NCBI RefSeq assembly: GCF_012849095.1
Contig: NZ_CP051680.1
Location: 4,619,501 to 4,683,500 of the forward strand
DNA from: Cohnella herbarum
GTDB lineage: Bacteria; Bacillota; Bacilli; Paenibacillales; Paenibacillaceae
Direction of reading: 5' to 3'
DNA: 64,000 nucleotides
Shown here: piece after piece, positions 23,025 through 60,725 of the stretch
How positions within the stretch are numbered: position 1 is the stretch's first letter
Layout of the letters: every line of letters starts with the position of its first letter
Notes under the pieces: model-generated
The model's input: the letters and a program-made list of their open reading frames with translations, nothing else
Told to the model about the DNA's origin: nothing
The model's database searches: none
Program-made: the position numbers and the translations under genes

Positions 23025-23429
23025 TTATGTGGTCCGTTGCATTTTCCGGATAATCGTTTCTTGCTCTAAAGAATGAAGAGCTAACGTTTCTAGTACTCGA
23101 TCGTGTCTGCCTTGACCAGATTTCAATTCTGCGACGTCCTCTTTCAGGACGGCTACGTCTGTCTTCAGAACGGCGACGTCCTCTTTCAGTACCGCAACGT
23201 CCTCTTTCAGTACTGCAACATCCTCTTTCAGTACCGCAACATCCTCTTTCAGTACCGCAACGTCCTCTTTCAGTACTGCAACATCCTCTTTCAGTACTGC
23301 AACATCCTCTTTCAGTACTGCGACGTCTTCTTTCAGTACTGCGACATCCTTTTGAATCCCGGTAATTTTCGCATCCATGACTTCAACGACATGTTTAATT
23401 GCCAACAAGATTTCCTTCGTTTCATCCAT
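23025..23429 (-). CDS. Small coiled-coil protein built from exact heptad repeats
   Basis: 134 residues with no signal peptide or membrane segment. Residues 28-104 are eleven consecutive heptads DVAVLKE (the ninth ends in T, the last is DVAELKS), giving Val/Leu at the a/d positions: a continuous coiled coil of about 77 residues. The flanks (MDETKEILLAIKHVVEVMDAKI and GRHDRVLETLALHSLEQETIIRKM) are also amphipathic helices. Function is unknown. The start ATG follows AAGGAG, and a terminator closes the gene, so it is a single-gene unit. Confidence 0.8.
   Translation of the reverse strand: MDETKEILLAIKHVVEVMDAKITGIQKDVAVLKEDVAVLKEDVAVLKEDVAVLKEDVAVLKEDVAVLKEDVAVLKEDVAVLKEDVAVLKTDVAVLKEDVAELKSGQGRHDRVLETLALHSLEQETIIRKMQRTT
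23118..23348 (-). repeat. 21-bp tandem repeat (eleven units) inside the coiled-coil gene
   Basis: The unit, about GAGGACGTTGCGGTACTGAAA, is repeated eleven times with only third-position differences. Low divergence at DNA level indicates recent expansion, and copy number could vary between strains without breaking the reading frame. Confidence 0.92.
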
Positions 23430-24813: not shown

Positions 24814-25974
24814 TTATCCTCGTAAGACTTCTTTAATCGCATATATGACATCTTGTACGTCATCGTCAGTCATTCCCGGAAAAAGCGGTAGACACATCGC
24901 TTCCTCGTAATATGCTTCGGCGTGTAAGCATTGTTTCTGCTCATATCCGAGATCCCTATAATACGGTTGATTATAGACGGGAATATAATGAACATGAACC
25001 CCGATATTGCGACTACGCAGCTCCTCAAAAGCTTTCGCTCGATCCGTTCCTTGATTCCACCTGATGACATATAAATGCCAACTAGACTCCGCTGCAGGAT
25101 GTTGATACGGAATCGTAATACCTTCGTTTTCCGAGAATGCTTGATTGTATTGTGCAGCAATTTCTCTACGTCGTGCAACGAAACGATCGAGCTTGTCCAT
25201 CTGAGAAACGCCTAGCGCAGCTTGGATATCCGTCATTCTGTAGTTGTAGCCTAAAGTTTGCATTTCATAGTACCAGGGTCCGTCATTACGCTCCATCTGC
25301 TCAGGTTCTTTCGTAACCCCATGACTGCGGAACATCAATAACCGATTCCTATACTCTTCGCTATTCGTTGCAATGACGCCTCCTTCACCCGTAGTGATAT
25401 GCTTAACGGGATGAAAGCTAAACATCGTCATGTCCGCTAGTGATCCGACTTTTCGACCTCCGAAAGAGGCTCCAATCGAATGCGCGGCATCTTGTATGAG
25501 CACCAAGCCGTGATCATGCGCAAGCATTGACAATCGGTCTGTTTCCGCCGGTTGCCCGCTAAAATCCACAGCTATGATTGCTTTAGTTTTAGGGGTGATT
25601 TTACGGGCGACCTCATCCGGATCAATATTATAAGTGTCAGGACGGATATCCGCGAATATCGGAGTTCCGCCGGAATACAACACGCAGTTACTACTTGCCA
25701 CGAATGTGATCGGCGTTGTAATAACCTCATCCCCGGGCGCGATTCCCGCCGCGAAACAAGCCCCGTGTAATGCCGCTGTTCCATTACAGAAGGCTACGAC
25801 ATATTTCGCCCCAACGTGTTCCGCTATTTTACGTTCAAACCGCTCAATAGAAGGGCCTTGCGTAATGAAGTCACTTCTTAAAACGTTAACGACGGCTTGG
25901 ATGTCATCCTCATCAATGGATTGCTTGCCGTAGGGAAGAAAAGACGTTCTTTTCGGACGGTGATGGCAGTGCAA
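24814..25974 (-). CDS. pseC: UDP-4-amino-4,6-dideoxy-N-acetyl-altrosamine transaminase
   Basis: The second step of pseudaminic acid synthesis: PLP-dependent amination at C4 of the PseB product. A DegT/DnrJ/EryC1-fold enzyme whose N-terminal FLPYGKQSIDEDDI and VLRSDFITQGP blocks are PseC-like. The PLP lysine is in FHPVKHITTGEGG, and IQDAAHSIGA holds the cofactor Asp. I favour the TTG at 25974, eight bases after AGGTGG (386 residues); a GTG at 25986 is inside that ribosome binding site. It is the last gene of the pse block. Confidence 0.9.
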   Translation of the reverse strand: MHCHHRPKRTSFLPYGKQSIDEDDIQAVVNVLRSDFITQGPSIERFERKIAEHVGAKYVVAFCNGTAALHGACFAAGIAPGDEVITTPITFVASSNCVLYSGGTPIFADIRPDTYNIDPDEVARKITPKTKAIIAVDFSGQPAETDRLSMLAHDHGLVLIQDAAHSIGASFGGRKVGSLADMTMFSFHPVKHITTGEGGVIATNSEEYRNRLLMFRSHGVTKEPEQMERNDGPWYYEMQTLGYNYRMTDIQAALGVSQMDKLDRFVARRREIAAQYNQAFSENEGITIPYQHPAAESSWHLYVIRWNQGTDRAKAFEELRSRNIGVHVHYIPVYNQPYYRDLGYEQKQCLHAEAYYEEAMCLPLFPGMTDDDVQDVIYAIKEVLRG

Positions 25975-26004
25975 CAGTTTTACCACCTCTCTAGTATCGT
26001 AGAA

Positions 26005-27084
26005 TCACTTTAAGGCTATAACTTCATTTAATATATTAGTTAATTTGAGATATCCATTGGTATTCAAGTGATCGTAGTCGGCAAAGTAATTGTAATTAAA
26101 GTCAGAGCTATCATATAAATCGATCATTTGAAAATCAAACTGCTGCTGAATTCCCCAAACTATATTCTTAAACTCATCCGCTTTTTTATCACCAAATCCA
26201 ATTCGGTACTCCTTAAGCTGAGGACTGATAATAACTATAGGTTTTATCTCATTTTCACTAAGTAAAGATAAATACTTAGAAAGTATTTCGATGTTTTCCT
26301 CTACGGTTTCCTTATAACTCCTATTTGAATGTCTACGACCAAGTTCTTCCCTAGCTATCTCTAAATTTTGACCAACTCTAAAACAAGAAGTATCATCGAC
26401 TTCCTTCAACTGAAACAAAGATTTTAACTCATGAATTTCACGCATAAAGGTTTCACAATGTTGGTCTGCTAATATAAATCTATCTAAAGAATGTTCTTTA
26501 ATTTTATCTCGAATCAAATTCAATCTGCTGTATAAACCAACTAATGATCTCGATGGTTGGTTTATAAAATTACTTTTGAATAAATCATAATCAAAGCTAT
26601 AGTAGGCCAAACCGATAACTGCCGTCTTTGGTTTGAAATTATATTCTTTACAACGGTCCAGATAAGATTCCAGCCAACAGTAATCCATGAACAAATCTTG
26701 AGAAGGTGCAGCAAGATTTGCTGCGGGTTGTGCTAACTGATGGCTCAAGATTCCCTTAGCATACGAAAGTCCAGTAATTGTTGTTTTATAGAGTTCTTCG
26801 GGTATATTGTTATGCATTACAAAATCAACAGCCGGAAGAATCTTAAATTCCTCTACACCGAGCGTTACTAGCTGCTTACTTATCTCGGAAAAAGCTGAAC
26901 TAGCAACTAGAATATAATCATAATCTAGTTGAACAGCATGAAGCGGAGGAAGTACCTTCATGCCTTTATACAATTGTCCCGCCTGATAACTATCAGTATA
27001 AGCAACGATAATAACATCTTCCTTAAGATGATGAAGCACACGATTGCATCCACTTCCGATGCCATAAATAATAACTTTTTTCAT
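26005..27084 (-). CDS. Rossmann-like plus SGNH-like protein of the pse block
   Basis: 359 residues in two parts. Residues 1-90 form a small Rossmann-like module (KKVIIYGIGSGCNRVLHHL...VLPPLHAV...ILVASSAF) also seen in other island enzymes. Residues about 150-359 resemble an SGNH-type hydrolase or O-acyltransferase: AVIGLAYYSFDY near the start and a C-terminal DYDHLNTNGYLKL carrying a plausible Asp-His pair. A nucleophile Ser was not identified with confidence. It may add or remove O-acyl groups on the sugar (inference). Confidence 0.6.
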   Translation of the reverse strand: MKKVIIYGIGSGCNRVLHHLKEDVIIVAYTDSYQAGQLYKGMKVLPPLHAVQLDYDYILVASSAFSEISKQLVTLGVEEFKILPAVDFVMHNNIPEELYKTTITGLSYAKGILSHQLAQPAANLAAPSQDLFMDYCWLESYLDRCKEYNFKPKTAVIGLAYYSFDYDLFKSNFINQPSRSLVGLYSRLNLIRDKIKEHSLDRFILADQHCETFMREIHELKSLFQLKEVDDTSCFRVGQNLEIAREELGRRHSNRSYKETVEENIEILSKYLSLLSENEIKPIVIISPQLKEYRIGFGDKKADEFKNIVWGIQQQFDFQMIDLYDSSDFNYNYFADYDHLNTNGYLKLTNILNEVIALK

Positions 27085-27131: not shown

Positions 27132-28079
27132 CTAAATCAGATTGGTCATACGAATCCAATCTTCCGTTCTTCGAATTCCCTCTTCCAATGTGACTTCCGG
27201 ATTCCAACCAAGAAGGTGATTCGCTTTTTCATAGCTACATAGAAGCTTTTGGATCTCGCTTTGCGGGTGAATATGCTCAATATGAGCAATTCGGGCTTTA
27301 TCCCCGACGATGAGCTCCGCTAGATCATTAATTGTAATGTCGCGACCTAAACCCGCATTCACGATCTCACCGTTGACTTGATCGGAATACCCCGCTTCTA
27401 CGACGAAACGCGCGCAATCTTCCACATACAGCAAATCCCGGGTTTGCTTACCCTCGCCATAAATATTGAGAGTTTTGCCCGCCAGCTTGTTTTTGATGAA
27501 AATCGCGACTACCCCGCCCTCCCCGCCCGTCTTCTGGAACGGACCGTAGGTGTTGAAAGGCCGGATGACGACCGTCGGAAGCCCATAAGCGTAATAATAG
27601 GATAGCACCATGTTCTCTGCGGCAATCTTAGCGCCTGCGTAAGGAGAAGCAGGTTTAATCGGATGAGCTTCGGTAATGCCCGTATCATCGTTGCAACGGT
27701 CATAAACCATGCATGTGCTCATGAAGACGACTTTGACTCGATGCTTGCGACATTGCTCAAGAATATAGAACGTGCCGATCGTATCGTTATTAAAGGTCGT
27801 ACGGGGATTATCGATTGAATCCTGTACGTTGATTGACGCGCCTAGGTGATAACATATATCGAACGAATTCGTAGCAAATAGATCAGCTAATAAAGTCTCG
27901 TCCAGCAATGAACCATGTACGAAGGATTTAAGACCGGGATGGCTACTGAACTCTTCGATATTTACTTCGCGTCCGTTGGATAGATCATCAAGTATCCAGA
28001 CGGCATGCCCATCGTCTAGCAACCTCTTGACAACCCATCTTCCGATAAATCCGGCTCCGCCGGTGAGTAGGATGTTCAT
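27132..28079 (-). CDS. NAD-dependent sugar epimerase/dehydratase
   Basis: An extended SDR of 315 residues. The cofactor motif TGGAGFIG is at residues 6-13, an acidic NAD-selecting D-D follows (WILDDLSNG), and the catalytic groups are MSTCMVYD and YAGAK (Tyr-x3-Lys). NTYGPFQ and VNAGLG are typical of GalE-like and dTDP-glucose-dehydratase-like enzymes. It is not PseB, which is at 56331. Its substrate is unknown; placement among pse genes suggests a nucleotide sugar. Confidence 0.85.
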   Translation of the reverse strand: MNILLTGGAGFIGRWVVKRLLDDGHAVWILDDLSNGREVNIEEFSSHPGLKSFVHGSLLDETLLADLFATNSFDICYHLGASINVQDSIDNPRTTFNNDTIGTFYILEQCRKHRVKVVFMSTCMVYDRCNDDTGITEAHPIKPASPYAGAKIAAENMVLSYYYAYGLPTVVIRPFNTYGPFQKTGGEGGVVAIFIKNKLAGKTLNIYGEGKQTRDLLYVEDCARFVVEAGYSDQVNGEIVNAGLGRDITINDLAELIVGDKARIAHIEHIHPQSEIQKLLCSYEKANHLLGWNPEVTLEEGIRRTEDWIRMTNLI

Positions 28080-28139: not shown

Positions 28140-28865
28140 CTAAATCGTGCCGTTATCTACATGTATAACCGTTCCCGTTATTGAACGCGACTTCTCCGAA
28201 AGCAAGAACAATACCGTATTTGCTACGCTTTCCACGTCCGTATCTCTTTTCAACGAAGTTCTTTTGTAAATACGATCCTTCTGTTCTGAAGTTAAAGAAG
28301 CGCTCATAGCCGTTTCCATGAATCCCGGAACTACGCAGTTGGATCGTATCCCCTTGCTGCCCCATTCCCTAGCAACATTAAGCGAAAATGCTTCTATTGC
28401 ACCTTTGCTAGCCGCATACATGCTCAATCCCTTGTATCCCGTATGCGCGCTTACAGACGAGATATGTACGATAGACCCTTCAACGTGATTTAGCAGCATA
28501 TCTCTTATTGCATACTTAGTTAGATTCATTGCGGAGAATACATTAACGTGAAACATTTTCTCCAATTGCTCCAAGTTCAGGTTGGAAACGATATCATCGT
28601 AAGCCGATGCCGAATTATTCACCAGTCCGTATATCGGTCCTATTTTGCGGATTTGCTGCATATACAACTGTTTGATTCCACTCGAGTCAGACAGATCGAA
28701 GGCTAGGCGTTTATATCTTTCGGGGTATTCTTCCATAAGCTTCTCGGACAGGTCCCCTGCCGATCGGCTGATCCCTATCACTCCATAGTCTGTTTCCGAG
28801 AGGATTTGGCTAACGGTCTTTTCCCCGAGCCCCTTGGAATCCCCCGTAACTATAATCCACTTCAT
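28140..28865 (-). CDS. SDR family oxidoreductase (FabG-like)
   Basis: A classical short-chain dehydrogenase of 241 residues: TGDSKGLGEKT cofactor loop near residue 7, NNSASAYDD, the catalytic Ser in HISSVSAHTG, and YAASKGA (Tyr-x3-Lys). Its start overlaps the stop of the acyl-activating gene by four bases (ATGA). Coupling to an ACP and acyl-activating enzyme suggests that it reduces a beta-ketoacyl or similar acyl group, for example to a 3-hydroxyacyl (inference). Confidence 0.85.
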   Translation of the reverse strand: MKWIIVTGDSKGLGEKTVSQILSETDYGVIGISRSAGDLSEKLMEEYPERYKRLAFDLSDSSGIKQLYMQQIRKIGPIYGLVNNSASAYDDIVSNLNLEQLEKMFHVNVFSAMNLTKYAIRDMLLNHVEGSIVHISSVSAHTGYKGLSMYAASKGAIEAFSLNVAREWGSKGIRSNCVVPGFMETAMSASLTSEQKDRIYKRTSLKRDTDVESVANTVLFLLSEKSRSITGTVIHVDNGTI

Positions 28866-30106
28866 TTTCTAGCCTTCTTTCCCGTTCTGGTAGTCAAAAT
28901 TTCTTCCACGAACGTAATGATCCGAGGCACTTTCCATTCCTGCAATTGTAGCGATGCTGCCTGTTTGATCGTTTTTTTGAGATCTTTCTCTTCAAGACCA
29001 TGTTCTTTCACGATATCCGCTACAAGAATCATGCCTGTTACGCTGTTTTCTTTGCCTTTCACCAGCGCTTCAACAACGCCCGGAACCTTCATCAATATGT
29101 TCTCGACTTCTATCGGATTTACTTTGTAACCGCCGACGTTAATAAGATCCGATTGACGCGATAGAAACTTGAAACTAAATCTATCAAGTTGCTCCACAAG
29201 GTCACCCGTATTAAACCATTCACCGTCCAATACCAAAGACTCTGATGCTCCCAACAGTGCCCGATGAATGAATAATTGGTTTTCTCTTATAGTTACAAAG
29301 GGACGAATCGATTCCGAGATATAGAATATATTGCCTCTAGCGACAAACAAGCTCCCCGCTTCCGTAGATGCATATATATTTCTAATTACAGCCCGAGGAA
29401 AGATTTGCTTGAATGCGCTCTCTAGAGCCGAATCATATTTTTCACCGCCGAATGCTATACTTCCTACGCTGGGATAGACTTGGTTATGAAAATAATGTAT
29501 AGCATTTCTATAAAACGTAGCCGTGGCCGAAATATGCGTAATTGAGTACTTCTCTAATAACTGAGGATAGTTCTTGGGTTGCTCGTCAAAAAAATAAATC
29601 ATCGTATTGCCGTTGAGCAGAGATTGGAAAAACACTTGCAATCCAGCCATATGGGTTGGGTTATAAGCAAACGCCCAGATAGCCCCATCAAACTTATCAT
29701 TTACTTTAATATTCCTAGTTAACGTATTGAAGGTATGGCTTACCTTCTTTGGTCGACCGCTTGTACCAGAGGTATATAAGGTCAAAGTCCACTTTTTATT
29801 TTGTTTTATCCGATGGAACAAATCGTTCCTATCCATAACTCTAAGCTGGAGATCCACTTCAACAGTGACTGATAACATTGCCTTCTCTATACCGATGTTT
29901 TCGAGCTCTTGTTCTGAGAAGTCTCCATCCAGTAGTTCAAGGGAATAATCGTATACCAGGCTATGGATGATCGATAAGAATATATCATACGGCTCGTTAT
30001 GTTCGATGTATAAGTAAGGGCTACAATGTCGTTTACTATTCAAATCCTCAATTAACTTGTTAAACGTATATTGATGCTCCCCGTGAACTAGAAAAATAGA
30101 TTCCAT
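28862..30106 (-). CDS. Acyl-activating (ANL superfamily) enzyme
   Basis: A 414-residue AMP-forming ligase. The phosphate-binding motif LYTSGTSGRPKKVSH is at about 113-127; later motifs are YASTEAGS, GEWFNTGDLVE, and NVGGYKVNPIEVE. The C-terminal catalytic-lysine motif is TRTGKKARK at the very end. It is shorter than most family members because the N-terminal part before the P-loop is reduced. The ACP gene is three bases upstream, so it probably adenylates a carboxylic acid and loads it onto that carrier. Confidence 0.85.
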   Translation of the reverse strand: MESIFLVHGEHQYTFNKLIEDLNSKRHCSPYLYIEHNEPYDIFLSIIHSLVYDYSLELLDGDFSEQELENIGIEKAMLSVTVEVDLQLRVMDRNDLFHRIKQNKKWTLTLYTSGTSGRPKKVSHTFNTLTRNIKVNDKFDGAIWAFAYNPTHMAGLQVFFQSLLNGNTMIYFFDEQPKNYPQLLEKYSITHISATATFYRNAIHYFHNQVYPSVGSIAFGGEKYDSALESAFKQIFPRAVIRNIYASTEAGSLFVARGNIFYISESIRPFVTIRENQLFIHRALLGASESLVLDGEWFNTGDLVEQLDRFSFKFLSRQSDLINVGGYKVNPIEVENILMKVPGVVEALVKGKENSVTGMILVADIVKEHGLEEKDLKKTIKQAASLQLQEWKVPRIITFVEEILTTRTGKKARK

Positions 30107-30109
30107 AGG

Positions 30110-30322
30110 TTATTTCCCTTCAATCTGCGAAATGATCTCCCCGATCGTCTGTACAATGACGTTCTCGAAAATATCGACTTCAAACTCTGCTTCGATCCGA
30201 ACCGTTAACTCGGCTAACATAAGAGAATCCATGTTTAAGTCGTCTCTTAAATGCATTGAACTTTCTATGCTGCTTATTTGTTGTCTGCCGGACTCCTCGA
30301 ACATTTCATTTATAATTTTCAA
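30110..30322 (-). CDS. Acyl carrier protein
   Basis: 70 residues of the four-helix ACP fold. The phosphopantetheine serine is Ser33 in DDLNMDSLMLAEL, and helix IV ends GEIISQIEGK. The first canonical start is TTG at 30322. However, an AGGAGG at 30343-30348 is 20 bases from it and only eight bases from an in-frame ATT at 30332-30334, which would add four residues. The true start may therefore be the ATT. A dedicated ACP here, with an ANL ligase beside it, points to acyl transfer onto a sugar or protein rather than bulk fatty-acid synthesis. Confidence 0.88.
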   Translation of the reverse strand: MKIINEMFEESGRQQISSIESSMHLRDDLNMDSLMLAELTVRIEAEFEVDIFENVIVQTIGEIISQIEGK

Positions 30323-30357
30323 TAATCGGTTAATCGCAATCGCCTCCTGATGTTCAT

Positions 30358-30897
30358 CTATTCCTCAAACCGGCCTTTATAATTCTTGAATAGCTTTGAC
30401 TTCAGTTCCCACTGTGACTTAGTTAGCTCCATAACATAAACATCATGAAACCTTTGATACTTAAACACATGTTGTTGATAAACGCCAACATCTCGATATC
30501 CATGCAGCTTATGGATTTTCATGATGTTCTCGTTTCCTTCCATCACTTCAGCCGTAATTTTATTAAAATTCAGTTCATAAAATATATAATTATATAAGTA
30601 AGGGGGAATAATCCCCCCATATATTCCGTATTGCTCGTCTCCGATGTAGTAACCCCAGCTAGTCCTTTTATTCTTTTGGTCGATTCCGTTCAACGAAATT
30701 AAACCTACCAAAAGACCTTTAATTGATATAACCCAATACTTTTCCGAGTTTGATTGGGAAATTGTCTCATACCACTTTATCTGATTTTCTAAATTATACT
30801 CGATATCATTGTACATATATTGAGTGACAGCAGCTTTCGTTCTCCAACCTAGCACTTGTTCAAGGTGACATTCTTGCAACTTGACAAATTCTATCAT
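30358..30897 (-). CDS. pseH: PseH-like sugar N-acetyltransferase (GNAT)
   Basis: 179 residues from the ATG at 30897, which follows GGAGG; the longer TTG frame starts inside the ribosome binding site. The GNAT fold resembles PseH, which N-acetylates the 4-amino group of the pseudaminic acid precursor: WRTKAAVTQYMYNDIEY near the N-terminus, WGYYIGDEQYGIYGGIIPPYL, and a C-terminal MKIHKLHGYRDVGVYQQHVF. Next to an ACP, it might accept acyl-ACP rather than acetyl-CoA (inference). Confidence 0.8.
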   Translation of the reverse strand: MIEFVKLQECHLEQVLGWRTKAAVTQYMYNDIEYNLENQIKWYETISQSNSEKYWVISIKGLLVGLISLNGIDQKNKRTSWGYYIGDEQYGIYGGIIPPYLYNYIFYELNFNKITAEVMEGNENIMKIHKLHGYRDVGVYQQHVFKYQRFHDVYVMELTKSQWELKSKLFKNYKGRFEE

Positions 30898-30928
30898 GAC
30901 ATCCTCCAACTAATGGCTTAAATCGGAT

Positions 30929-31729
30929 TTAAAATGCTTTAACCAAGTTCGGAGCATCCGGTGCGAACTCCCCGTTCAAATACCGATCTACGATATCATT
31001 GTCGAAGGTGTTGTAAATTAATCTGAGATGCTGCGGCATCCAATCCGCGGACATGAATAACTTGCCGTTGCTTCTCTGCGGAACTGCTACGATCTTCTGA
31101 TTATTGCGAACAAGCTTGAGGATATGGATCAGATCCTCCGCGACTTGCTTTACAGCATTGCAAGCCACATCATGTATTCCTTCCCCTTGGCTTAATTGAG
31201 GTACTGAATGATGAATAATGGATCCACCGTCCAGCTTCGAGGTTAGATGATGGATAGTCATCCCCGCCCAGTTCGGCTTCAGGAAATAAAAAGGCCAGAA
31301 CAGCGTCGTGTTGCCTCTATACCATGGGGAAAGACCTCCGTGGATGTTCCATGCGCGTTCGGGCAAAGCGGCCAGCATGTCGTCATTCAGCTTATGAATG
31401 CCATAACTGAGAACGGTTTCCGAATACATAGAGCCAACCCACTGAGCCGTCTCCAGACTATTCAATTGATCAATGGTTACTTGTTTAATAGGAATTCCCT
31501 TAAAGTAATCGAGCTTAATCACGCCAAATGATCTCTGCTCGGAAAGATCACGATCATGGAAATGCCTGATGAAGTTATTTCTATCTATTTCAGGCCAGCT
31601 TAAAGACGGACTTGGCACAAAATCCTCACGCTTCTCGACGAGTAATCCGCAAAGAAGGCCTTCGTCGTATAATCTCTTAGCGATATGCAAGTGCCTAGGG
31701 TGTGAGCCGGTCATGAAAATCGTAGTCAT
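30929..31729 (-). CDS. Formyltransferase-family protein
   Basis: 266 residues related to 10-formyl-tetrahydrofolate-dependent formyltransferases. The catalytic Asn-His pair is in WNIHGGLSPWYRG and the Asp in LDGGSIIHH. In surface-sugar loci this family makes N-formylamino sugars. Here it could formylate an amino group of the nonulosonate or of a perosamine-like sugar. The start overlaps the preceding stop by four bases (ATGA). Confidence 0.82.
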   Translation of the reverse strand: MTTIFMTGSHPRHLHIAKRLYDEGLLCGLLVEKREDFVPSPSLSWPEIDRNNFIRHFHDRDLSEQRSFGVIKLDYFKGIPIKQVTIDQLNSLETAQWVGSMYSETVLSYGIHKLNDDMLAALPERAWNIHGGLSPWYRGNTTLFWPFYFLKPNWAGMTIHHLTSKLDGGSIIHHSVPQLSQGEGIHDVACNAVKQVAEDLIHILKLVRNNQKIVAVPQRSNGKLFMSADWMPQHLRLIYNTFDNDIVDRYLNGEFAPDAPNLVKAF

Positions 31730-33072
31730 AATGAAACCCCCTTCTCAAAATATGGCCCATCGATTATCCCTTTTTGTGATAATAACTTAACATAGGGGAG
31801 GAGGCTTTCAATGCTGCATCGACATAGGTCAGCAATTTCAGTTAATAAGTGCTCTCCGTCCGCATAGTTAAGAAAGGTTAAGGTTCGATTTAACTGAACT
31901 CGATTATCTTCTATTTGATTATTCGATCGTACAAATGTCGTAGATGAGTTCATATCTGGGTACAAACCATGCTTATCTAGCTTTACCTCTCCATAAGGGA
32001 AACGATTAATGTAATATCCTTCTGCTTCATTCGCAAGGAGTATTTTTTCCAAGTCGTCCACGCTGTGCTGAAGAGCTTCAATTGTCATGGTTTCCTTAGT
32101 ATCTAGCGAATTATGATAGCCAGGATATGCTCCATAAACCATTCGCGACATTTGCCCTACAGGAAGATTAAACCCCGGAGAGCAATATTGGCGTTCGTCT
32201 GATCCATGTTCAGGCGTAAAATGACGTGTGTTGCCTTGGAGAGACTCTTGGGCAAGCATTTGCTTCCATATCCTGTCAATTGGGTTGAATCCCGATCGGG
32301 AAAGCTTATAACTTAATGATTTTTCTCCACCCAGACACGTTAAAACAAGCCCAGCATGCAAGTTCTGCTTTAAGTGGTCTCCAAAACGATGTAAGTACGA
32401 AATACTCCCAATCGTTTCGGGTAAAAAGACAAATCGGTAAGTAAACCTGCGTTGTTGCCATTGTGCTATCCGCTTATACAGAAATGTTGCAACGAGAGGT
32501 CCACTTAGTTCATTATTGGCCAAAGAAGGATGACAAATATAGCTACTGATGAGCACCTCACGATCGCTCTTCCCAGGCAAAACAGAGTGTCCATAGTTCA
32601 GCTCACCTTGAATAAATGAACTATCGATAAATGCCTCATATTCGCCTTCCGGCAATGCTTCCAGCACTTCATGAGAAATACAAAACCCCCATCTTCTCTT
32701 GTAGTAAGAAGTCACATAAGGGATAGCCTTCGGAAGATGTGGAACGGTATACAAGTGCTTTTTCATTTCATCCAGAGACAACTTAACATGTATGGGTTCG
32801 CTATAGTTGACAATGTGTAAATTGGATACCTTAAAATCAGCAATCACATTGCCATGAGGATCCTTTAACCAAGCATCGCGGATAACCCACTCTTGCGGGA
32901 TTTCCCAATCAAATACCCGAGTACCTGTGGGTACGGCAAAATTCTCAAGCGGGAGATGCTCTGTTAGCAATGAAAGGGTCTCACGGAGCCCTTCCCCCGT
33001 GATGCTTCGGCATATCGGAAATAAACTGTCGAACAATTGATCCATTTGTTGGAGTTCATGATTTTTGTCCAT
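31726..33072 (-). CDS. Aminopeptidase-like protein (DUF4910/DUF2172 type)
   Basis: 448 residues. The central part carries a zinc-peptidase-like core (ISSYICHPSLANNELSGP; FLPETIGSISYL; HSLDTKETM with GYHNSLD). It is followed by a small C-terminal winged-helix-like domain (LLTEIADLCRCSIESLLPYVKLLSQKGII). The N-terminal CRSITGEGLRETL block is characteristic. Members occur in polysaccharide and nonulosonate loci, but their substrate is not established. It may remove an amide group from a sugar intermediate (inference). Confidence 0.78.
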   Translation of the reverse strand: MDKNHELQQMDQLFDSLFPICRSITGEGLRETLSLLTEHLPLENFAVPTGTRVFDWEIPQEWVIRDAWLKDPHGNVIADFKVSNLHIVNYSEPIHVKLSLDEMKKHLYTVPHLPKAIPYVTSYYKRRWGFCISHEVLEALPEGEYEAFIDSSFIQGELNYGHSVLPGKSDREVLISSYICHPSLANNELSGPLVATFLYKRIAQWQQRRFTYRFVFLPETIGSISYLHRFGDHLKQNLHAGLVLTCLGGEKSLSYKLSRSGFNPIDRIWKQMLAQESLQGNTRHFTPEHGSDERQYCSPGFNLPVGQMSRMVYGAYPGYHNSLDTKETMTIEALQHSVDDLEKILLANEAEGYYINRFPYGEVKLDKHGLYPDMNSSTTFVRSNNQIEDNRVQLNRTLTFLNYADGEHLLTEIADLCRCSIESLLPYVKLLSQKGIIDGPYFEKGVSL

Positions 33073-33079
33073 GTTCGGT

Positions 33080-34132
33080 TTAGAGCAACTCCCAAGAAAG
33101 AGGAGTTCCTTTCTTAATATCTTCTTTCGCGGATTTACCTAGAATTCGTTCCAAGTACTTGGTAGGAAGACCAAGCCCGGGACGAATCGCCCGAACGTTC
33201 TGTTCGTTAAATATATCCCCAGCCTTCATATTTTCAGCAATATATAAGGAACGTCTATATTTCAAAGAGTTTTTTTCCGCACCCGTAGCGCCATAAGAAA
33301 TACGTCCAAGCGATTGCCATGCTCTTTCGGTCTCTATCGCAAGAGATCGAAATTCCTGCGGCTCCAATGAAAAGGTGGAATCCACTCCCCCATCTGCCCT
33401 GGAGAACGTGAAGTGCTTCTCGATCACGCTTGCACCCAAAACAACGCTAGCAACAGCCGCGCCAACTCCCATCGTGTGGTCGGATAGACCGACTTGGCAT
33501 TGAAAGAGTTGTTCCATATGGGGAATAGTTGCCAGATTCGAATTGACGGGACTGGATGGGTAAGTGCTTGTACATTTTAACAAAATAAGGTTTGTACACC
33601 CTGCCTCCCGAGCAGTAATCACGGTTTCATGAAGTTCTGAAATGGAAGCCATCCCCGTAGAAATAATAAGCGGCTTCCCAGTTGACGCAGCTTTCCGGAT
33701 CAATGGTAGATCCGTATTCTCGAATGAGGCGATTTTATACGCAGGAACATCTAAAGATTCTAAAAAATTGACTGCACTCGCGTCGAACGGAGTACTGAAA
33801 GCGAGTATTCCACGTTCTTTGCAGCGATCAAAGATTGGTTTGTGCCACTCCCAAGGGGTATACGCTTCCTCATATAGCTTATACAAAGAAGTTCCTTCCC
33901 ATATGTTATTCGAGTCCGAAATAAAGAAATCGCCTTCGTGAACGTCCAATGTCATCGTGCTTGCTGTATATGTCTGAAGCTTGAGCGCATCGGCTCCTGC
34001 ATCAGCCGCAGCGTCGACGATTGCCAGTGCACGATCCAAAGATTGGTTGTGATTGCCTGACATTTCAGCAATGAGAAACGGCTTATGGCCTTTACCTATT
34101 AAACGGCCTGCAATCGCGATGTCTTGAATCAC
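33080..34132 (-). CDS. pseI: Pseudaminic acid synthase
   Basis: Condenses the 6-deoxy-altrose diacetamido sugar with phosphoenolpyruvate to give pseudaminic acid. 350 residues. The NeuB-type TIM barrel (about 10-275) has FLIAEMSGNHNQ and ADALKLQTYTAS; the C-terminal SAF (antifreeze-like) domain contains RSLYIAENMKAGDIF and LGKSAKEDI. The GTG start follows GGAGGAAATTTAAA, with the pseG stop in between. Confidence 0.94.
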   Translation of the reverse strand: MIQDIAIAGRLIGKGHKPFLIAEMSGNHNQSLDRALAIVDAAADAGADALKLQTYTASTMTLDVHEGDFFISDSNNIWEGTSLYKLYEEAYTPWEWHKPIFDRCKERGILAFSTPFDASAVNFLESLDVPAYKIASFENTDLPLIRKAASTGKPLIISTGMASISELHETVITAREAGCTNLILLKCTSTYPSSPVNSNLATIPHMEQLFQCQVGLSDHTMGVGAAVASVVLGASVIEKHFTFSRADGGVDSTFSLEPQEFRSLAIETERAWQSLGRISYGATGAEKNSLKYRRSLYIAENMKAGDIFNEQNVRAIRPGLGLPTKYLERILGKSAKEDIKKGTPLSWELL

Positions 34133-34133
34133 T

Positions 34134-35207
34134 TTAAATTTCCTCCAATAGAGCTTCTAACACCCTGTTATATGCGGCTTCTGGCTGGCTTTCCATTAAT
34201 GTAAGCCCGTTTAATCCCAACTTTAGCAGATCTTCAGGGATAGCAAGGGCATTAGATAATATATCGGCATAATGACCCGAATTTATTTGTTCATGCCATC
34301 CCATATTCCAGATGCAACCCGATGATTCTGCAAAACGTACGCCATCTCTTTGGTTATCCGCCACGATTGTTACGGCTGAAGGCAACCCAAGATAGCAACG
34401 CTCCCACATGGCGACTCCTCCTGATCCTAAGGCGAAGTCCGCTTGAGAGATGAAATCGTCCATGTTTTCCACTTGGACATGCAATTTGACATTGGGCATC
34501 TTTATGCAACTTTGCTCTAGCTCAAAGCGATTAGTATTAATTTGACCAATAATAATATCAACCCGCATGAAATTCAGGTCTATACCATAAAGCGCATCTA
34601 AGACCTTTGCTGTCTCATTCGTTGGGTCGCTCCCACCAAAAAAAACCAAAATTCTATTAACTTTGCCGTTTCTCTTCCTAAGTTTACGCCTTGACTCGTA
34701 AAAGGAAGGTTTAAGCAATAGATACTTCGGTCCCAAGAGTTGTATGCACTTCTCCGGAACTAGACCTGCATAACGCTTTTTGGTAATATCACTAATATTT
34801 TGATCCAATAACATATCTCCAATATGGGGGCGATCGGCTAGATCATCGATTATCAGCATGCGACCGACAATCGGTTTTATAACGCTTTCCCATTTCTCGT
34901 CTATGCCGTAATGATCCACAATAAACCAATCTGGTGGATTTAAGAAGCTTGTTATGATTTGTTTGGTAAACTCGGCGTCACTAGATACATTCGCGAAGTC
35001 TATAGGAGCTTCCGCTAGTATTCGGTATACTTGAAACCCACGAGATTCGATGTAGTCAGCCATATTGCCCTCTGTCATTCGACATATAAATACGACTTTG
35101 AATCCCGCACACCTCAAGCCATCTGCAATAATTAGACACCTCATTACATGACCGGTTCCTATTGCAAGAGAAGCATCCGCTCTTATGACTGCTATTCTTC
35201 TGTTCAC
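34134..35207 (-). CDS. pseG: UDP-2,4-diacetamido-trideoxy-altrose hydrolase
   Basis: Removes UDP from the pathway intermediate. 357 residues with a GT-B-like fold. The N-terminal motif LAIGTGHVMRCL contains the proposed catalytic His, and the nucleotide-binding C-terminal half has GSGGVAMWERCYLGLPS. The GTG start overlaps the pseF stop by four bases (GTGA). Confidence 0.93.
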   Translation of the reverse strand: MNRRIAVIRADASLAIGTGHVMRCLIIADGLRCAGFKVVFICRMTEGNMADYIESRGFQVYRILAEAPIDFANVSSDAEFTKQIITSFLNPPDWFIVDHYGIDEKWESVIKPIVGRMLIIDDLADRPHIGDMLLDQNISDITKKRYAGLVPEKCIQLLGPKYLLLKPSFYESRRKLRKRNGKVNRILVFFGGSDPTNETAKVLDALYGIDLNFMRVDIIIGQINTNRFELEQSCIKMPNVKLHVQVENMDDFISQADFALGSGGVAMWERCYLGLPSAVTIVADNQRDGVRFAESSGCIWNMGWHEQINSGHYADILSNALAIPEDLLKLGLNGLTLMESQPEAAYNRVLEALLEEI

Positions 35208-35932
35208 CTTACCACCGGCTTTTGTTCAATATGTTTGTTTAATGCGGATACATCCGGATTCCTCAGTAAGTAATCTAAAACTTCACTAGATAAAACATCT
35301 TTCTGACCCGAAAATGCATTAGCAATCGCTAAACAAAGAGTATAGTCCTCCTCCGTATCCATGGTAACGCGAAGCTCAGGATACTGTAAATCGCTCGGCA
35401 CTTGGACCATCGTTTGAGTAAATTGATCAGCGAACTCATATGCATAATAGGTAACATGCTCACGATGTCGTAGTTCATGGCCAATTTCATATATTTTCTT
35501 TAGCGCCGACATCGAGATCATCTCAACTGCTAGCCCACGCGGGAGGTTTCCTTTTAATACCGCAAAATCTGTTGGGTTATCTGTCATTGTTTCTACAAAA
35601 ATACTAGCAAGACGATAATCGACAAAAGGGCAATCCGATGTTACACGGATCACATAGTCTGGATCGTACAATAATGAACACTCATAGAAGCGCGCAAGAA
35701 CATCCTCCTCGGAACCCCTGAAACAAGAAACCTTATGTTGGTCGCACCAGGCCACTATCCGATCATCAGAAGGTAGCGTGGAAGTTGCAACTACCACTTC
35801 CTCTACGTTCGGAATCAGTCTGCAGCGATGAACTACATAATCTAGAACACAACTTTCTCCAAGAGGAAGCAGTATTTTACCCGGAAGTCGAGTTGACCCC
35901 ATTCTTGCTTGTATGATAACGATAGTTTTCAC
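35204..35932 (-). CDS. pseF: Pseudaminic acid cytidylyltransferase (PseF/SpsF type)
   Basis: Activates pseudaminic acid as CMP-Pse. 242 residues with a nucleotidyltransferase N-terminus IIQARMGSTRLPGKIL and RVTSDCPFVDYRL, the SpsF-like form used in Gram-positive pse loci. The start is GTG, preceded by GGGAAAGGGAC. It is the first gene of the pse block pseF-G-I-(DUF4910)-(formyltransferase)-H-ACP-ANL-SDR-epimerase-SGNH-C. Confidence 0.87.
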   Translation of the reverse strand: MKTIVIIQARMGSTRLPGKILLPLGESCVLDYVVHRCRLIPNVEEVVVATSTLPSDDRIVAWCDQHKVSCFRGSEEDVLARFYECSLLYDPDYVIRVTSDCPFVDYRLASIFVETMTDNPTDFAVLKGNLPRGLAVEMISMSALKKIYEIGHELRHREHVTYYAYEFADQFTQTMVQVPSDLQYPELRVTMDTEEDYTLCLAIANAFSGQKDVLSSEVLDYLLRNPDVSALNKHIEQKPVVR

Positions 35933-56330: not shown

Positions 56331-57344
56331 TTAAAGGAGATTCTCATACATCAACCAGTCAAGAAGTTTTTCCTTACCAATAATCTCATTCGAAGAATAT
56401 TTCATTTTGTCGGACAACCAATTTCCCGAAGAGTAACTATTTTTATCTATCTGTTGACCATAAATAGGAGGAATAATATACATTAAATCTGTTTCGAGTA
56501 CATTGTGCTGCTCGTCTACCGTCATTAATTCCTCTTCCAATTTCTCTCCGGGGCGAAGTCCTATCTCTTCGATTCGCACATCTCCATGATAAGGAGTCTC
56601 CTTTGTTAATTGCTCTATCATTACTTCAGTGAGATCTGCCAGTCTAACTATCGGCATTTTTAATACAAATACTTCCCCCCCATAAGACATTCCATTAGCT
56701 TCCATCAACAGACTAATAGCTTGTTGAGGGGTCATCATATATCTTGTCATTCTTAAATCTGTAATCGTGACTTTTTGTTGTTCAAGAATCTGTTTTTTGA
56801 ATAGCGGAATTACCGACCCTCTAGAACCCATAACATTACCAAACCTAACGGAAGCAAAGGAAGTCACCTTCGACCCCTTCTGATAACCCGCTGCAGAAAT
56901 TAATCTCTCAGCAGTTAACTTGGTAGCCCCATATGTATTGGAAGGCGACACCGCTTTGTCCGTGCTCGTAAACAGTACTTTTTCAACGCCTGCTTGAATC
57001 GCGGATTGTATCACGTTCTGGGTACCGATTACGTTAGTCTGTACAGCTTCAAATGGGTTATATTCACAGAATGGCACGTGTTTCATAGCCGCCAGATGAA
57101 AGACATAGTCGATATCCTCCATCGCTCTCGCTAATCTCTGTTGATCGCGAACATCGCCAATCAGAAATCGGAGTTTATTGGCATCTTCTTGAAAAGCTAG
57201 TCCCATTTCGTATTGCTTATATTCATCACGACTAAATATACGAATGACCTTTGGATTTTCTTGCAACAATCGTTTTGTCAAATGGTATCCGATTGTTCCT
57301 GTTCCGCCAACAATAAGTATTTTCTTGTCCGTATATATCCCCAT
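56331..57344 (-). CDS. pseB: UDP-GlcNAc 4,6-dehydratase (inverting)
   Basis: The first step of pseudaminic acid synthesis: dehydration with C5 inversion. 337 residues: LIVGGTGTIGYHLTKRLL, the hallmark FSRDEYKQYEM, HLAAMKHVPFCEYNPFEA, and the active-site TSTDKAVSPSNTYGATKLTAE. It lies six bases after the Maf gene, 20 kb away from the other pse genes. Such a pseB-maf linkage next to flagellin is common in Firmicutes. Confidence 0.93.
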   Translation of the reverse strand: MGIYTDKKILIVGGTGTIGYHLTKRLLQENPKVIRIFSRDEYKQYEMGLAFQEDANKLRFLIGDVRDQQRLARAMEDIDYVFHLAAMKHVPFCEYNPFEAVQTNVIGTQNVIQSAIQAGVEKVLFTSTDKAVSPSNTYGATKLTAERLISAAGYQKGSKVTSFASVRFGNVMGSRGSVIPLFKKQILEQQKVTITDLRMTRYMMTPQQAISLLMEANGMSYGGEVFVLKMPIVRLADLTEVMIEQLTKETPYHGDVRIEEIGLRPGEKLEEELMTVDEQHNVLETDLMYIIPPIYGQQIDKNSYSSGNWLSDKMKYSSNEIIGKEKLLDWLMYENLL

Positions 57345-57350
57345 GGTTTC

Positions 57351-59189
57351 CTATCCTCTTTCATTGAGCTTCTCTAGTAGATTTGTTATATAGATATCCA
57401 TAAGAGGAACAAGTTCATGTAGACCTACTATTAAGGGGCTAATACATTCTATCAACTTAATGTGCTTCAGTTCATTATCCGCCTCGTTAAACATATCGCT
57501 CCAATGACGTTCCGTATGATTTCTCTCAGCAGTTAACAGGAACGAAAATATCTTTGTATATAACGTATGTTCTATAACCGGTGACCAGAGTGCTACAAAT
57601 TTTTGTAACCAACCTTGAATATCCCTCGATTTGAACTGAATATGCTTTTCCAACATCTTTAACTTCTTATGCAAGTCCGCTAACTCTAGATATGTAAGTT
57701 TAATTTTATCTAAGATCGCCTGCCTTCTTACTTCTGGGAAAACAGATAATGTCTGAACTACTTTTTCTCTAAACCAATCATCGGCGATTATGTGATGTTG
57801 GTGCTCCTCAATCATTTCCTCAAATTTCTTAAGCTCGGTATGTTCAATCACCGCTCCTACGGTTGATGCATTATAAAATGAAATATTCGGAAAAGCCCCG
57901 ATCACGGCTTCCACATCTCTTTTGAGATTTAACATGGAATGGTTCGTTCTATTTTGATAACCAGCTACACTTTCTACCGAGAGTATGGAATTGACAACCC
58001 CATATTTCTCCCACTCAATAAGGTGATTAACTCCATCTGAATACATTCTATCACCAGGATAGGAGAAGTCCTGACCTATAAATGTAATCTCTGCAAATCC
58101 AAGATGCGCCGCAACTTGAATACAAGTCCCTGTAACAGAAGAAGTAGAAGCAAGAATTCCATCTTCTGTTGTTAAATCTATGAAATAATGAGAAACAACA
58201 TCCATATCGAAAAATCCATGCATCAAATACGGAGACCGATCATCCCTGATCGCCTCATATTTAATACTCGGGATATATAAGAAGGGAATATGGCCAACAT
58301 CAAGCTTTTCGAAAACGCGTTGGTTAGGTGCACCGCCATCCATTGAGACAATCAAATGCGGCTCAATCCCATGATGCAATAGCCCCTGAACGCTTGAACC
58401 AGCAGCAATAATAAAGACATGCTTTTTAAGTTCACGCAATATATCAGCTTCCATACCCAAAGATGGACCTGATCCTACAATGATTGCCGCCATCCCATGA
58501 CATATATCCTTCAAAGGGAAGAAGGTAGGCGTCCGTAAATTTCTCTCCATATTCAAAATCATGTTTTCCAACCATTCCGCCTTGTAGTGCGAGATGGTTC
58601 TAACATCTGTGCCATAACTCAATGCCAACTTCGGAATTAAATCAGAAAGTCGGCTCTCCAGGTCCGGGGCTAACTTCCTGCAATAAGGAAGTACAGTGAA
58701 ACCGAATTGTCCCTTTAAGGTCTTATACATTCCTATTAACAATTCGGTTATTACACCTTCATCATTACCAATTGCGAACATCGCAATTTGTCGACTCCCG
58801 AGAATCGGCCTTAAATCCACCGTTTCAATAGCTGCAAGAAAAACATTCAAATCCGGTTCATAGATATATAAACGTTTATCCGGGTGTTGGACTAAAAGGG
58901 TGTCCAGATGATAGCCCAATCCAAATCCGGCCACCAACACATCATTCGAATTTAGGATGTTATCGTCTATAGACTCAACCCATCTTTTAGTTTCAAGCTC
59001 CGGATCATACTTACTATACATATGAAAACCCACACCATCTTCCGACGGAATAAGTAAGTTTGATTGTCCGTTCTTAGCTGGTTCTATGGCAACAAGTTCC
59101 TTATTATAAGTTTGATTCCTAACAAGCTTATAGATTTCCGGATACTGCTCCCTAAGAAACATCAAATTATCTGCTGCATACTTCTTCAT
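57351..59189 (-). CDS. Motility accessory factor (Maf) flagellin glycosyltransferase
   Basis: 612 residues. The central MptE-like (DUF115) domain carries AAIIVGSGPSLGMEADIL, IIAAGSSVQGLLHHGIEPHLIVSMDGG and ITFIGQDFSYPGDRMYSDG. The N-terminal part (DVLVAGFGLGYHLDTLL; LYIYEPDLNVFLAAIE) and a helical C-terminus complete the Maf layout. Maf proteins transfer CMP-nonulosonates to Ser/Thr of flagellin before export. It overlaps the upstream gene by four bases (ATGA) and is followed by pseB. Confidence 0.93.
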   Translation of the reverse strand: MKKYAADNLMFLREQYPEIYKLVRNQTYNKELVAIEPAKNGQSNLLIPSEDGVGFHMYSKYDPELETKRWVESIDDNILNSNDVLVAGFGLGYHLDTLLVQHPDKRLYIYEPDLNVFLAAIETVDLRPILGSRQIAMFAIGNDEGVITELLIGMYKTLKGQFGFTVLPYCRKLAPDLESRLSDLIPKLALSYGTDVRTISHYKAEWLENMILNMERNLRTPTFFPLKDICHGMAAIIVGSGPSLGMEADILRELKKHVFIIAAGSSVQGLLHHGIEPHLIVSMDGGAPNQRVFEKLDVGHIPFLYIPSIKYEAIRDDRSPYLMHGFFDMDVVSHYFIDLTTEDGILASTSSVTGTCIQVAAHLGFAEITFIGQDFSYPGDRMYSDGVNHLIEWEKYGVVNSILSVESVAGYQNRTNHSMLNLKRDVEAVIGAFPNISFYNASTVGAVIEHTELKKFEEMIEEHQHHIIADDWFREKVVQTLSVFPEVRRQAILDKIKLTYLELADLHKKLKMLEKHIQFKSRDIQGWLQKFVALWSPVIEHTLYTKIFSFLLTAERNHTERHWSDMFNEADNELKHIKLIECISPLIVGLHELVPLMDIYITNLLEKLNERG

Positions 59190-59890: not shown

Positions 59891-60706
59891 TTAGCCAAGT
59901 AGACGAAGTACGTTTTGCGGTACGGAGTTTGCTTGCGCCAACATAGCTGTACCAGCTTGTACAAGAATTTGTCTGCGAGTGAAGTCTGTCATCTCTTTAG
60001 CCATATCTGCATTGCGGATACGGGATTCAGAAGCGGACAAGTTCTCGGAGTTTACGCCAACGTTGTTGATCGTGTGCTCCAAGCGATTTTGTACAGCACC
60101 GAACTCAGCACGACGTTGCGATACAACGCTGATTGCGGATTGAATAGCAGCAATTGCTGTTTGAGCACCGCTTGCAGTACTTACATCAAGGCTACCAACG
60201 CCGATTTTGGATGCTTGCATACCGCTACCCAAAGATACGGAGATTGTCGTGTTAGCTTCGAAACCAACTTGGAAAGATACGCTGGATTGAGTTCCATTCA
60301 ATAAGCTGATGCCATTGAACTTCAAGCTAGTAGCAATGTTGTCGATTTCAGCAACAAGCGCAGTTACTTCCAGACCGATTTTCTCGCGGTCGGATTCAGC
60401 CAATGTTCCGTTGGAAGCTTGGTTAGCCAATACGTTCAGACGTTGCAACATGGAGTGAACTTCAGTAAGCGCACCCTCTGCAGTTTGGATCAAGGAGATA
60501 CCGTCTTGAGCATTGCTGATCGCTTGGTTGTAACCGCCGATTTGGTAACGCATTTTTTCGGAAATCGCCAAACCTGCAGCATCGTCAGCAGCGCGGTTGA
60601 TACGGTAACCGGAAGAAAGTTTTTCCATTGTTTTGCCCATTTGGGTGTTGTTGGATCCCAAGTTGCGATGAGCGTTGATTGCACTAACGTTTGTGTTAAT
60701 GTACAT
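59891..60706 (-). CDS. hag: Flagellin
   Basis: The filament subunit, 271 residues from the ATG at 60706 (MYINTNVSAINAHRNLGSNN). The conserved D0/D1 ends are complete: KLSSGYRINRAADDAAGLAIS near the N-terminus and SRIRNADMAKEMTDFTRRQI with QANSVPQNVLRLLG at the C-terminus. The middle (about 145-190) is short, so the outer D2/D3 domains are almost absent, as in B. subtilis Hag. The gene has its own SigD promoter, CsrA-type leader sites and a strong terminator. Confidence 0.97.
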   Translation of the reverse strand: MYINTNVSAINAHRNLGSNNTQMGKTMEKLSSGYRINRAADDAAGLAISEKMRYQIGGYNQAISNAQDGISLIQTAEGALTEVHSMLQRLNVLANQASNGTLAESDREKIGLEVTALVAEIDNIATSLKFNGISLLNGTQSSVSFQVGFEANTTISVSLGSGMQASKIGVGSLDVSTASGAQTAIAAIQSAISVVSQRRAEFGAVQNRLEHTINNVGVNSENLSASESRIRNADMAKEMTDFTRRQILVQAGTAMLAQANSVPQNVLRLLG

Positions 60707-60710
60707 AATG

Positions 60711-60725
60711 ATCATCCTCCATGAT
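60711..60725 (-). promoter_or_regulatory. hag ribosome binding site overlapping a CsrA GGA motif
   Basis: The minus strand reads ATCATGGAGGATGAT just before the hag ATG. The Shine-Dalgarno GGAGG also provides an AGGAUG core, the usual place for the repressing CsrA site (BS2 equivalent). Confidence 0.6.

Follow-up and report, generated by a model that had tools for sequence, protein, structure and literature searches.

A pseudaminic acid (Pse) operon in a 64,000-nucleotide stretch of the Cohnella herbarum genome (NZ_CP051680.1, positions 4,619,501 to 4,683,500; hereafter the window, with positions counted from its first letter) carries, beside a PseH-type GNAT acyltransferase, genes for an acyl carrier protein (ACP), a short acyl-activating ligase of the ANL type and a FabG-like short-chain dehydrogenase/reductase (SDR). 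Comparison of this arrangement with other genomes suggests that the trio probably is a plug-in acyl supply, from which the GNAT would move a hydroxyacyl group to the amine destined to become N7 of Pse. The four genes concerned are:

30358..30897, minus strand: PseH-type GNAT acyltransferase, window-type branch (TIGR03585, 108.7 bits vs cut-off 93.1, and tree; mechanical open reading frame 30358-30909)
30110..30334, minus strand: ACP with a DSL serine (PF00550, 30.3 bits vs cut-off 20.8; mechanical frame 30110-30322)
28862..30106, minus strand: short ANL acyl-activating ligase, 414 residues (PF00501 and PF13193)
28140..28865, minus strand: FabG-like SDR, third gene of the cassette (PF13561/PF00106; best PDB matches are 3-oxoacyl-ACP reductases)

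The initial annotation had described ACP, ANL and SDR genes next to a PseH-like GNAT and a formyltransferase, and Pfam and NCBIfam results confirm the genes, their order and their spacing: 3 bp separate ACP from ANL, ANL and SDR share an ATGA overlap, and the formyltransferase-like gene overlaps a DUF4910 gene by 4 bp. Between the formyltransferase-like, GNAT, ACP, ANL, SDR and Pal genes no terminator-like site was found, the matches in this stretch being all intragenic. The GNAT probably starts at ATG 30897, with GGAGG at 30907-30903. The ACP probably starts at the rare codon ATT 30334-30332, eight bases behind AGGAGG at 30348-30343, a choice favored because it gives a 74-residue protein with the same first residue as the orthologs in loci L039 and L040.

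The initial annotation also proposed a comparison of pse loci with and without the ACP, ANL and SDR genes, and this comparison separates two kinds of PseH. It rests on a search for PseH in 246 genomes of the order, which gave 31 matches above cut-off, 30 of which made loci; the match left out, the ordinary PseH of genome G161, was read in locus L167 and is likewise without an ACP. Twenty-three loci hold an ordinary PseH, 25-29% identical to the window GNAT where labelled and mostly encoded between PseG and PseI. The other seven, the window included, hold window-type GNATs, at least 48% identical to that of the window; these and additional sequences found through the ANL form one clade with support 94/96, the first value lying just under the program's own star. 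An ACP set is encoded in the same cluster for five of the six window-type GNATs outside the window, vs one of the 23 ordinary PseH genes. Two of the ACP genes in the window-type set lie more than 1.5 kb from the GNAT, hence the wide stretches, 17-19 kb each, used for a fair comparison. Two of the window-type loci have ACP-ANL-SDR, while three have ACP, ANL, LuxE and LuxC, plus an SDR or an Fe-ADH. The single ordinary PseH with an ACP set (L139/L178) has SDR, ANL, LuxE and LuxC as well, the set lying exactly between GNAT and PseI. Around the other 22, profile and BLAST labels identified ordinary pse genes and in no case an ACP, LuxE, LuxC, DUF4910 or formyltransferase. In L174, an ordinary-type GNAT is joined to an ACP-ANL cassette on a contig that ends inside the ANL gene; with L178, this case suggests repeated coupling of PseH-type GNATs with ACP-based supplies. 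The ACP of L179 was recognized by the ACP profile at E 3e-5 and by no Pfam model. An AlphaFold2 model of the window GNAT (pLDDT 94.3) has PDB matches that include Helicobacter pylori PseH, 4ri1. Replacement of the catalytic Tyr was considered as a distinguishing feature of this branch and rejected, as ordinary Gram-positive PseH also has His at that position. By identity, tree and gene neighborhood, the window GNAT is supported as belonging to a branch of PseH distinct from the ordinary form and linked to ACP-based supplies.

The cassette itself is patchily distributed, the ANL having an ortholog in two of 37 genomes of the genus and, at E < 1e-60, in 11 of 392 genomes of the order, the window's own genome included in both counts. 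We assembled 86 loci from the best 80 of 167 relatives that patterns from the ANL alignment detected in the genome collection, plus earlier loci, with the duplicates L039 and L043-L046 dropped. In 84 of the 86, the gene immediately upstream of the ANL encodes an ACP, according to an ACP profile trained mostly on these same loci; one of the two misses is cut by a contig end and the other, L059, has its ACP label further downstream. An SDR adjoins the ANL in 82. The order ACP-ANL-SDR is not a matter of chance. Record titles place the loci in Bacillota, Bacteroidota, Cloacimonetes, Spirochaetales, Chloroflexi and others, and the trio, judged by gene order, appears as a conserved, portable cassette of amino-sugar loci in several phyla. 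Viral contigs searched with the ANL patterns gave no match. The quartet GNAT-ACP-ANL-SDR also stands alone, in L040. In the nearest relative, Cohnella cholangitidis (L039 8273-8997, the same locus as L051), the SDR occupies two overlapping frames and is frameshifted in the assembly.

The window's ANL has the TSGTSGRPK loop, the GGYK hinge and the C-terminal GKK, all invariant or nearly so in the alignments, which presumably serve adenylation and provide the catalytic lysine. A Ser-Tyr-Lys pattern (S..YxxxK) is found in the window's SDR and in all 82 adjacent SDRs of the locus set. Specific family models match below cut-off: the window SDR scores 163.6 bits against the FabG model TIGR01830 (cut-off 297.75), and the window ACP 30.7 bits against the AsbD model (cut-off 100). 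The nearest folds to the window's ANL are mostly CoA ligases, MenE among them; EntE-EntB and DltA rank lower.

Within four same-strand genes of the ANL, 49 of the 86 loci have a gene from an LbH, GNAT or AAC(3)-like cluster (35, 10 and 6 loci, respectively, with overlap), and 37 have none; each cluster takes its name from the Pfam result for a single representative. Genes of these three clusters make up 56 of 396 genes at most three from the ANL vs 16 of 492 at six or more (Fisher P 4e-9), in a test that favors near genes, since the profiles derive from genes no more than seven positions from the ANL, and in which genes of one locus are not independent. A DegT-type aminotransferase lies within eight genes in 44 loci and a NeuB/PseI-like synthase in 17. 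The excess of transferases near the ANL, together with the variety of partners, makes the cassette look like an acyl supply with exchangeable transferase and sugar. In the ten GNAT loci of this set (L051, L052, L054, L056, L057, L064, L073, L084, L041 and the lone quartet L040), which were found through the ANL and so are cassette-linked by construction, the GNAT gene directly adjoins the ACP gene every time. A BtrH-like label for neighbors in L042 and L047 was a by-eye guess, matched by no Pfam family, and was set aside.

Several loci bear on which amine receives the acyl group. In Tissierella (L064), the genes run PseB, PseC, SpsF-like, GNAT, ACP, ANL, SDR, PseI, PseG, and Lysinibacillus (L052) has a like order with PseB not labelled. 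Neither locus has a formyltransferase or other acyltransferase according to labels or to Pfam on ten unlabelled proteins, three of which are familyless; L054 resembles both by labels alone. In L168, the window-type GNAT lies between PseG and PseI, the usual place of PseH. A GNAT in the place of PseH in L064, L052 and L168 argues that it takes the PseH step, at N4 of the UDP-sugar, and we infer that the acylated position is N7 of Pse.

A pathway can be proposed in which the ANL would adenylate a short carboxylic acid and load it on the phosphopantetheine of its dedicated ACP, the FabG-like SDR would set the oxidation state of the acid, most simply from 3-oxo to 3-hydroxy, and the PseH-type GNAT would use the resulting hydroxyacyl group to acylate UDP-4-amino-4,6-dideoxy-AltNAc at its 4-amine. 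Through the action of PseG and PseI, that amine would end up as N7 of the pseudaminic acid, whereupon the SpsF-like enzyme and Maf would place the sugar on flagellin. The acid that the ACP would carry and the GNAT deliver to the future N7 is most likely a short hydroxy acid. The idea in the initial annotation of acid loading on the ACP and passage through the GNAT has gained in two respects, a dedicated acyl supply accompanied by an acyltransferase and an ACP-linked GNAT branch; the formyltransferase, which it noted beside these genes, probably acts separately.

Some points weigh against this pathway. In genome G161, a lone quartet and a complete pse operon that includes an ordinary PseH lie 208 kb apart, so this quartet is not necessarily a substitute for PseH. 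The sixth window-type GNAT outside the window, that of L168, has no ACP within 18 kb; by eye, a 147-residue frame between PseG and this GNAT (L168 9614-10057) has an ANL-like start and is possibly a remnant of a decayed acyl-supply set. The GNAT could take acyl-CoA made by the ANL. Finally, the change in the CoA-binding loop of the ACP-linked GNATs has a parallel in a known CoA enzyme. The GxG of this loop is missing in all 17 ACP-linked GNAT rows and present in 25 of 27 others (L148 and L073 read by eye, L175 counted as ACP-linked), and the loop is helical in the predicted model of the window GNAT. Eleven of the 17 rows, however, come from the window-type clade and forms related to it, so independent cases are few, and the first Gly is missing from H. 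pylori PseH too, whose published structure with acetyl-CoA has Gly103 and Lys133 at the pyrophosphate (PMC4363471). Since that enzyme binds acetyl-CoA all the same, we rejected loop loss as proof of ACP use; as a sequence feature it may lend the ACP donor weak support.

The donor is accordingly the point on which the proposed pathway meets its nearest rival, which otherwise overlaps with it: the ANL might make acyl-CoA or a freely exchangeable acyl thioester, with the ACP a mere platform for storage or reduction and the GNAT using a CoA donor. CoA ligases such as MenE are the closest folds to the ANL, CoA is a common GNAT donor, and H. pylori PseH binds acetyl-CoA with a similar loop; but the near-constant ACP directly upstream of the ANL, and an SDR of the FabG-like class, which acts on ACP thioesters, point the other way, and we consider a CoA donor rather unlikely and infer that the donor is the ACP. 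A rival that departs further would keep the GNAT as an ordinary acetyl-CoA PseH, with the ACP, ANL and SDR acylating another sugar of the flagellar glycan by way of another transferase. The name that TIGR03585 gives the window GNAT, an N-acetyltransferase, would fit, as would a hexapeptide-repeat protein at 36870-37871 that could be the other acyltransferase, and G161, with both an ordinary PseH operon and a quartet. Against these stand the invariable contact of GNAT and ACP genes in the ten GNAT loci, L040 included, and the low identity of this branch to ordinary PseH, and we judge the alternative improbable. Lipid synthesis, putting a fatty chain on the glycan, is what the authors of studies of Aeromonas (PMC7874193) and enterobacterial (PMC4875605) flagellar islands suggest for similar gene sets, which they read as possibly making a liposugar. 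For the window we hold this very improbable, as no ketosynthase is found among the 12 operon genes by Pfam and NCBIfam and the published Aeromonas Pse derivative (PMC7874193) is some 60 Da heavier than Pse5Ac7Ac and no more.

For the acid transferred under the favored ACP-fed pathway, a 3-hydroxyacyl product is favored by the similarity of the SDR to 3-oxoacyl-ACP reductases and by a KAS III-cluster gene within four genes of the ANL in eight of the 86 cassettes (L075, L076, L080, L086, L089, L112, L113 and L121). The KAS III genes suggest, for those eight, longer acyl groups such as dihydroxyhexanoyl. Fold searches directed at the identity of the acid returned generic ANL and GNAT matches only, and 3-hydroxybutyryl is put forward as a tentative first guess. 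For the LuxE/LuxC type, by arithmetic to which other compositions may also conform, Pse5Ac with one N-dihydroxybutyryl group has a mass of 376.148 vs the 376.14 Da of the Aeromonas derivative, and the terminal 102 Da moiety in Aeromonas equals C4H6O3 (102.032).

Two genes lie between PseI and the GNAT in the window:

31726..33072, minus strand: DUF4910/DUF2172/HTH_47 metallopeptidase-like protein (Pfam; PDB 3k9t, E 1e-93), adjoining the next gene
30929..31729, minus strand: formyltransferase-like protein (FMT), relative of ArnA and PseJ (PF00551, 27.4 bits vs cut-off 26.1; PDB ArnA E 4e-10, PseJ E 2e-7)

All NCBIfam scores of the FMT are under cut-off. A DUF4910 gene lies near the GNAT in six of nine ACP-linked genomes vs none of 22 genomes with ordinary PseH; a distant copy occurs in one of the 22 and, on another contig, in one of the nine. 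In those six genomes an FMT gene adjoins DUF4910. The two stand side by side at ACP-linked pse loci in the window (31726-33072), L041, L056, L057, L169, L170 and L178. The pair is not fixed, for among nine DUF4910 loci in the set of 86 there is an FMT in three and an AAC(3)-like gene in six (L070, L107, L111, L115, L117 and L119). Because the FMT travels with DUF4910 and several loci with the GNAT cassette do without it, it probably has a function separate from that cassette; our guess is that DUF4910 and FMT together replace the acyl group on the other amine. A wider and rather doubtful extension would make the cassette a general, horizontally shared plug-in for amino-sugar N-acylation, here paired with a DUF4910 protein that deacetylates the other amine and an FMT that caps it, to give acetyl-free Pse on flagellin, for example with N-formyl and N-hydroxybutyryl groups and a residue mass of about 346.14 Da. 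Pilin of Pseudomonas aeruginosa 1244 reportedly carries pseudaminic acid with N-formyl and N-3-hydroxybutyryl groups. As for DUF4910 itself, Das et al. describe in their report of structure 3k9t residues that fit no known peptidase site, name sugar-amide deacylation and transacylation as options, and note in Clostridium acetobutylicum a DUF4910 locus where an ACP gene and an aminosugar acetyltransferase gene are neighbors (PMC4000134).

The window module can be set beside several characterized or predicted systems. In petrobactin synthesis, AsbC-AsbD-AsbE, a small ANL similarly charges a free-standing carrier with an acid that is then transferred to an amine; there, however, the acid is an aryl acid, the acceptor a polyamine and the transferase unrelated, and no SDR is known to take part. 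The tetronate genes of Vibrio cholerae O1 include an Fe-ADH and a LuxC-type reductase, neither of which is found among the window's 12 operon genes by Pfam and NCBIfam; L171 resembles this tetronate module. The likeness lies in RfbK/RfbL and WbeL, whose ANL enzyme activates a hydroxy acid destined to N-acylate a different amino sugar, perosamine, with CoA or a carrier protein as the putative acceptor of the activated acid (PMC12208996, PMC3441752). The R-group genes wfpC-G of Flavobacterium psychrophilum share with the window a dedicated ACP, a ketoacyl-ACP reductase and an acyltransferase predicted to move an ACP-bound hydroxyacyl group to a UDP-amino sugar; they differ in that ketosynthases take the place of the ANL and a PglD-type transferase that of the GNAT, and in Qui2NAc4N as the sugar (PMC6519341). 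V. cholerae RfbL and the wfp genes are the closest parallels for N-acylation fed by a ligase or an ACP. Among Pse loci, the polar flagellin island of Aeromonas Group II comes close: genes for an ACP, a 3-oxoacyl-ACP reductase (SDR) and an AMP-dependent synthetase (ANL), with luxE and luxC, follow pseH, and the flagellin carries a Pse derivative of 376.14 Da (PMC7874193). It differs in the order ACP-SDR-ANL and in luxE and luxC, neither of which Pfam (ten genes) or NCBIfam (the other two) showed among the 12 operon genes of the window; L169, L170 and L178 are of this type. H. pylori PseH shares fold and family with the window GNAT, differing in being an acetyl-CoA enzyme (PMC4363471) and in sequence, with 21% identity in the structural match. 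A search of titles on pseudaminic acid with acyl carrier protein and ligase found none on Paenibacillaceae, most subscription journals lying outside the search. Term searches of a Geobacillus island paper gave no "acyl carrier", "AMP", "luxE" or "ligase", and of a Clostridium paper no "AMP-binding", "formyl" or "DUF4910", with "acyl" twice. Published precedents thus exist in the Aeromonas and enterobacterial islands, V. cholerae tetronate and the Flavobacterium R-groups, and the window module is a variant on them.

The operon comprises 12 minus-strand genes, running from 35932 to 24814 in the order SpsF-like, PseG, PseI, DUF4910, FMT, GNAT, ACP, ANL, SDR, Pal, C2185/DltD-like and PseC, and in it PseC, PseG, PseI and the GNAT each score above their NCBIfam cut-offs. 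Its remaining members, and the flagellar genes further along the window, are:

35204..35932, minus strand: cytidylyltransferase that we take to be SpsF-like (weak KdsB-type matches, every one under cut-off)
34134..35207, minus strand: PseG, UDP-sugar hydrolase (TIGR03590, 279.6 bits vs cut-off 153.55)
33080..34132, minus strand: PseI, pseudaminic acid synthase (TIGR03586, 492.1 bits vs cut-off 340.25)
27132..28079, minus strand: Pal (PDB 6bwl "Pal", E 4e-148)
26005..27084, minus strand: C2185-like_N and DltD-like protein (PF22674, PF04914)
24814..25986, minus strand: PseC aminotransferase (TIGR03588, 509 bits vs cut-off 423.5)
56331..57344, minus strand: PseB/Pen-like dehydratase (TIGR03589, 337 bits, under the cut-off of 407.75; PF02719)
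57351..59189, minus strand: Maf flagellin glycosyltransferase (PF01973 and PF20157)
59891..60715, minus strand: flagellin (PF00669 and PF00700)

The epimerase gene at 27132-28079 was considered as PseB and ruled out by its match to Pal, which indicates a Pen/Pal route in the window. The PseB/Pen-like, Maf and flagellin genes at 56-61 kb mark a flagellar glycosylation region, and the flagellin at 59891..60715 is the likely final acceptor. The same genome has a second pse cluster (L050, contig C1 7415500-7435000) with a PseB scoring 527 bits, above cut-off, two DUF4910 genes, a small PF00551 formyltransferase and no gene labelled PseH. The C2185/DltD-like protein at 26005-27084 is conceivably a sugar O-acyl-modifying enzyme; its gene, between Pal and PseC, is absent in L039 and L041. 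A small protein of about ten "AVLKEDV" coiled-coil repeats is encoded at 23025-23429.

If the proposed pathway is correct, the "fatty acid" genes of flagellar glycosylation islands would be suppliers of N-acyl groups for nonulosonates, not lipid genes, and one sugar pathway could change its acyl group by a swap of cassettes. The pathway predicts exact masses for the flagellin: calculated residues are 360.153 Da for Pse5Ac7Hb, 346.138 for Pse5Fo7Hb and 376.148 for the dihydroxybutyryl form, vs 316.127 for Pse5Ac7Ac and 302.111 for Pse5Ac7Fo. It may also offer a role for DUF4910, whose structure is solved but to which the paper describing it could assign no more than candidate activities (PMC4000134).

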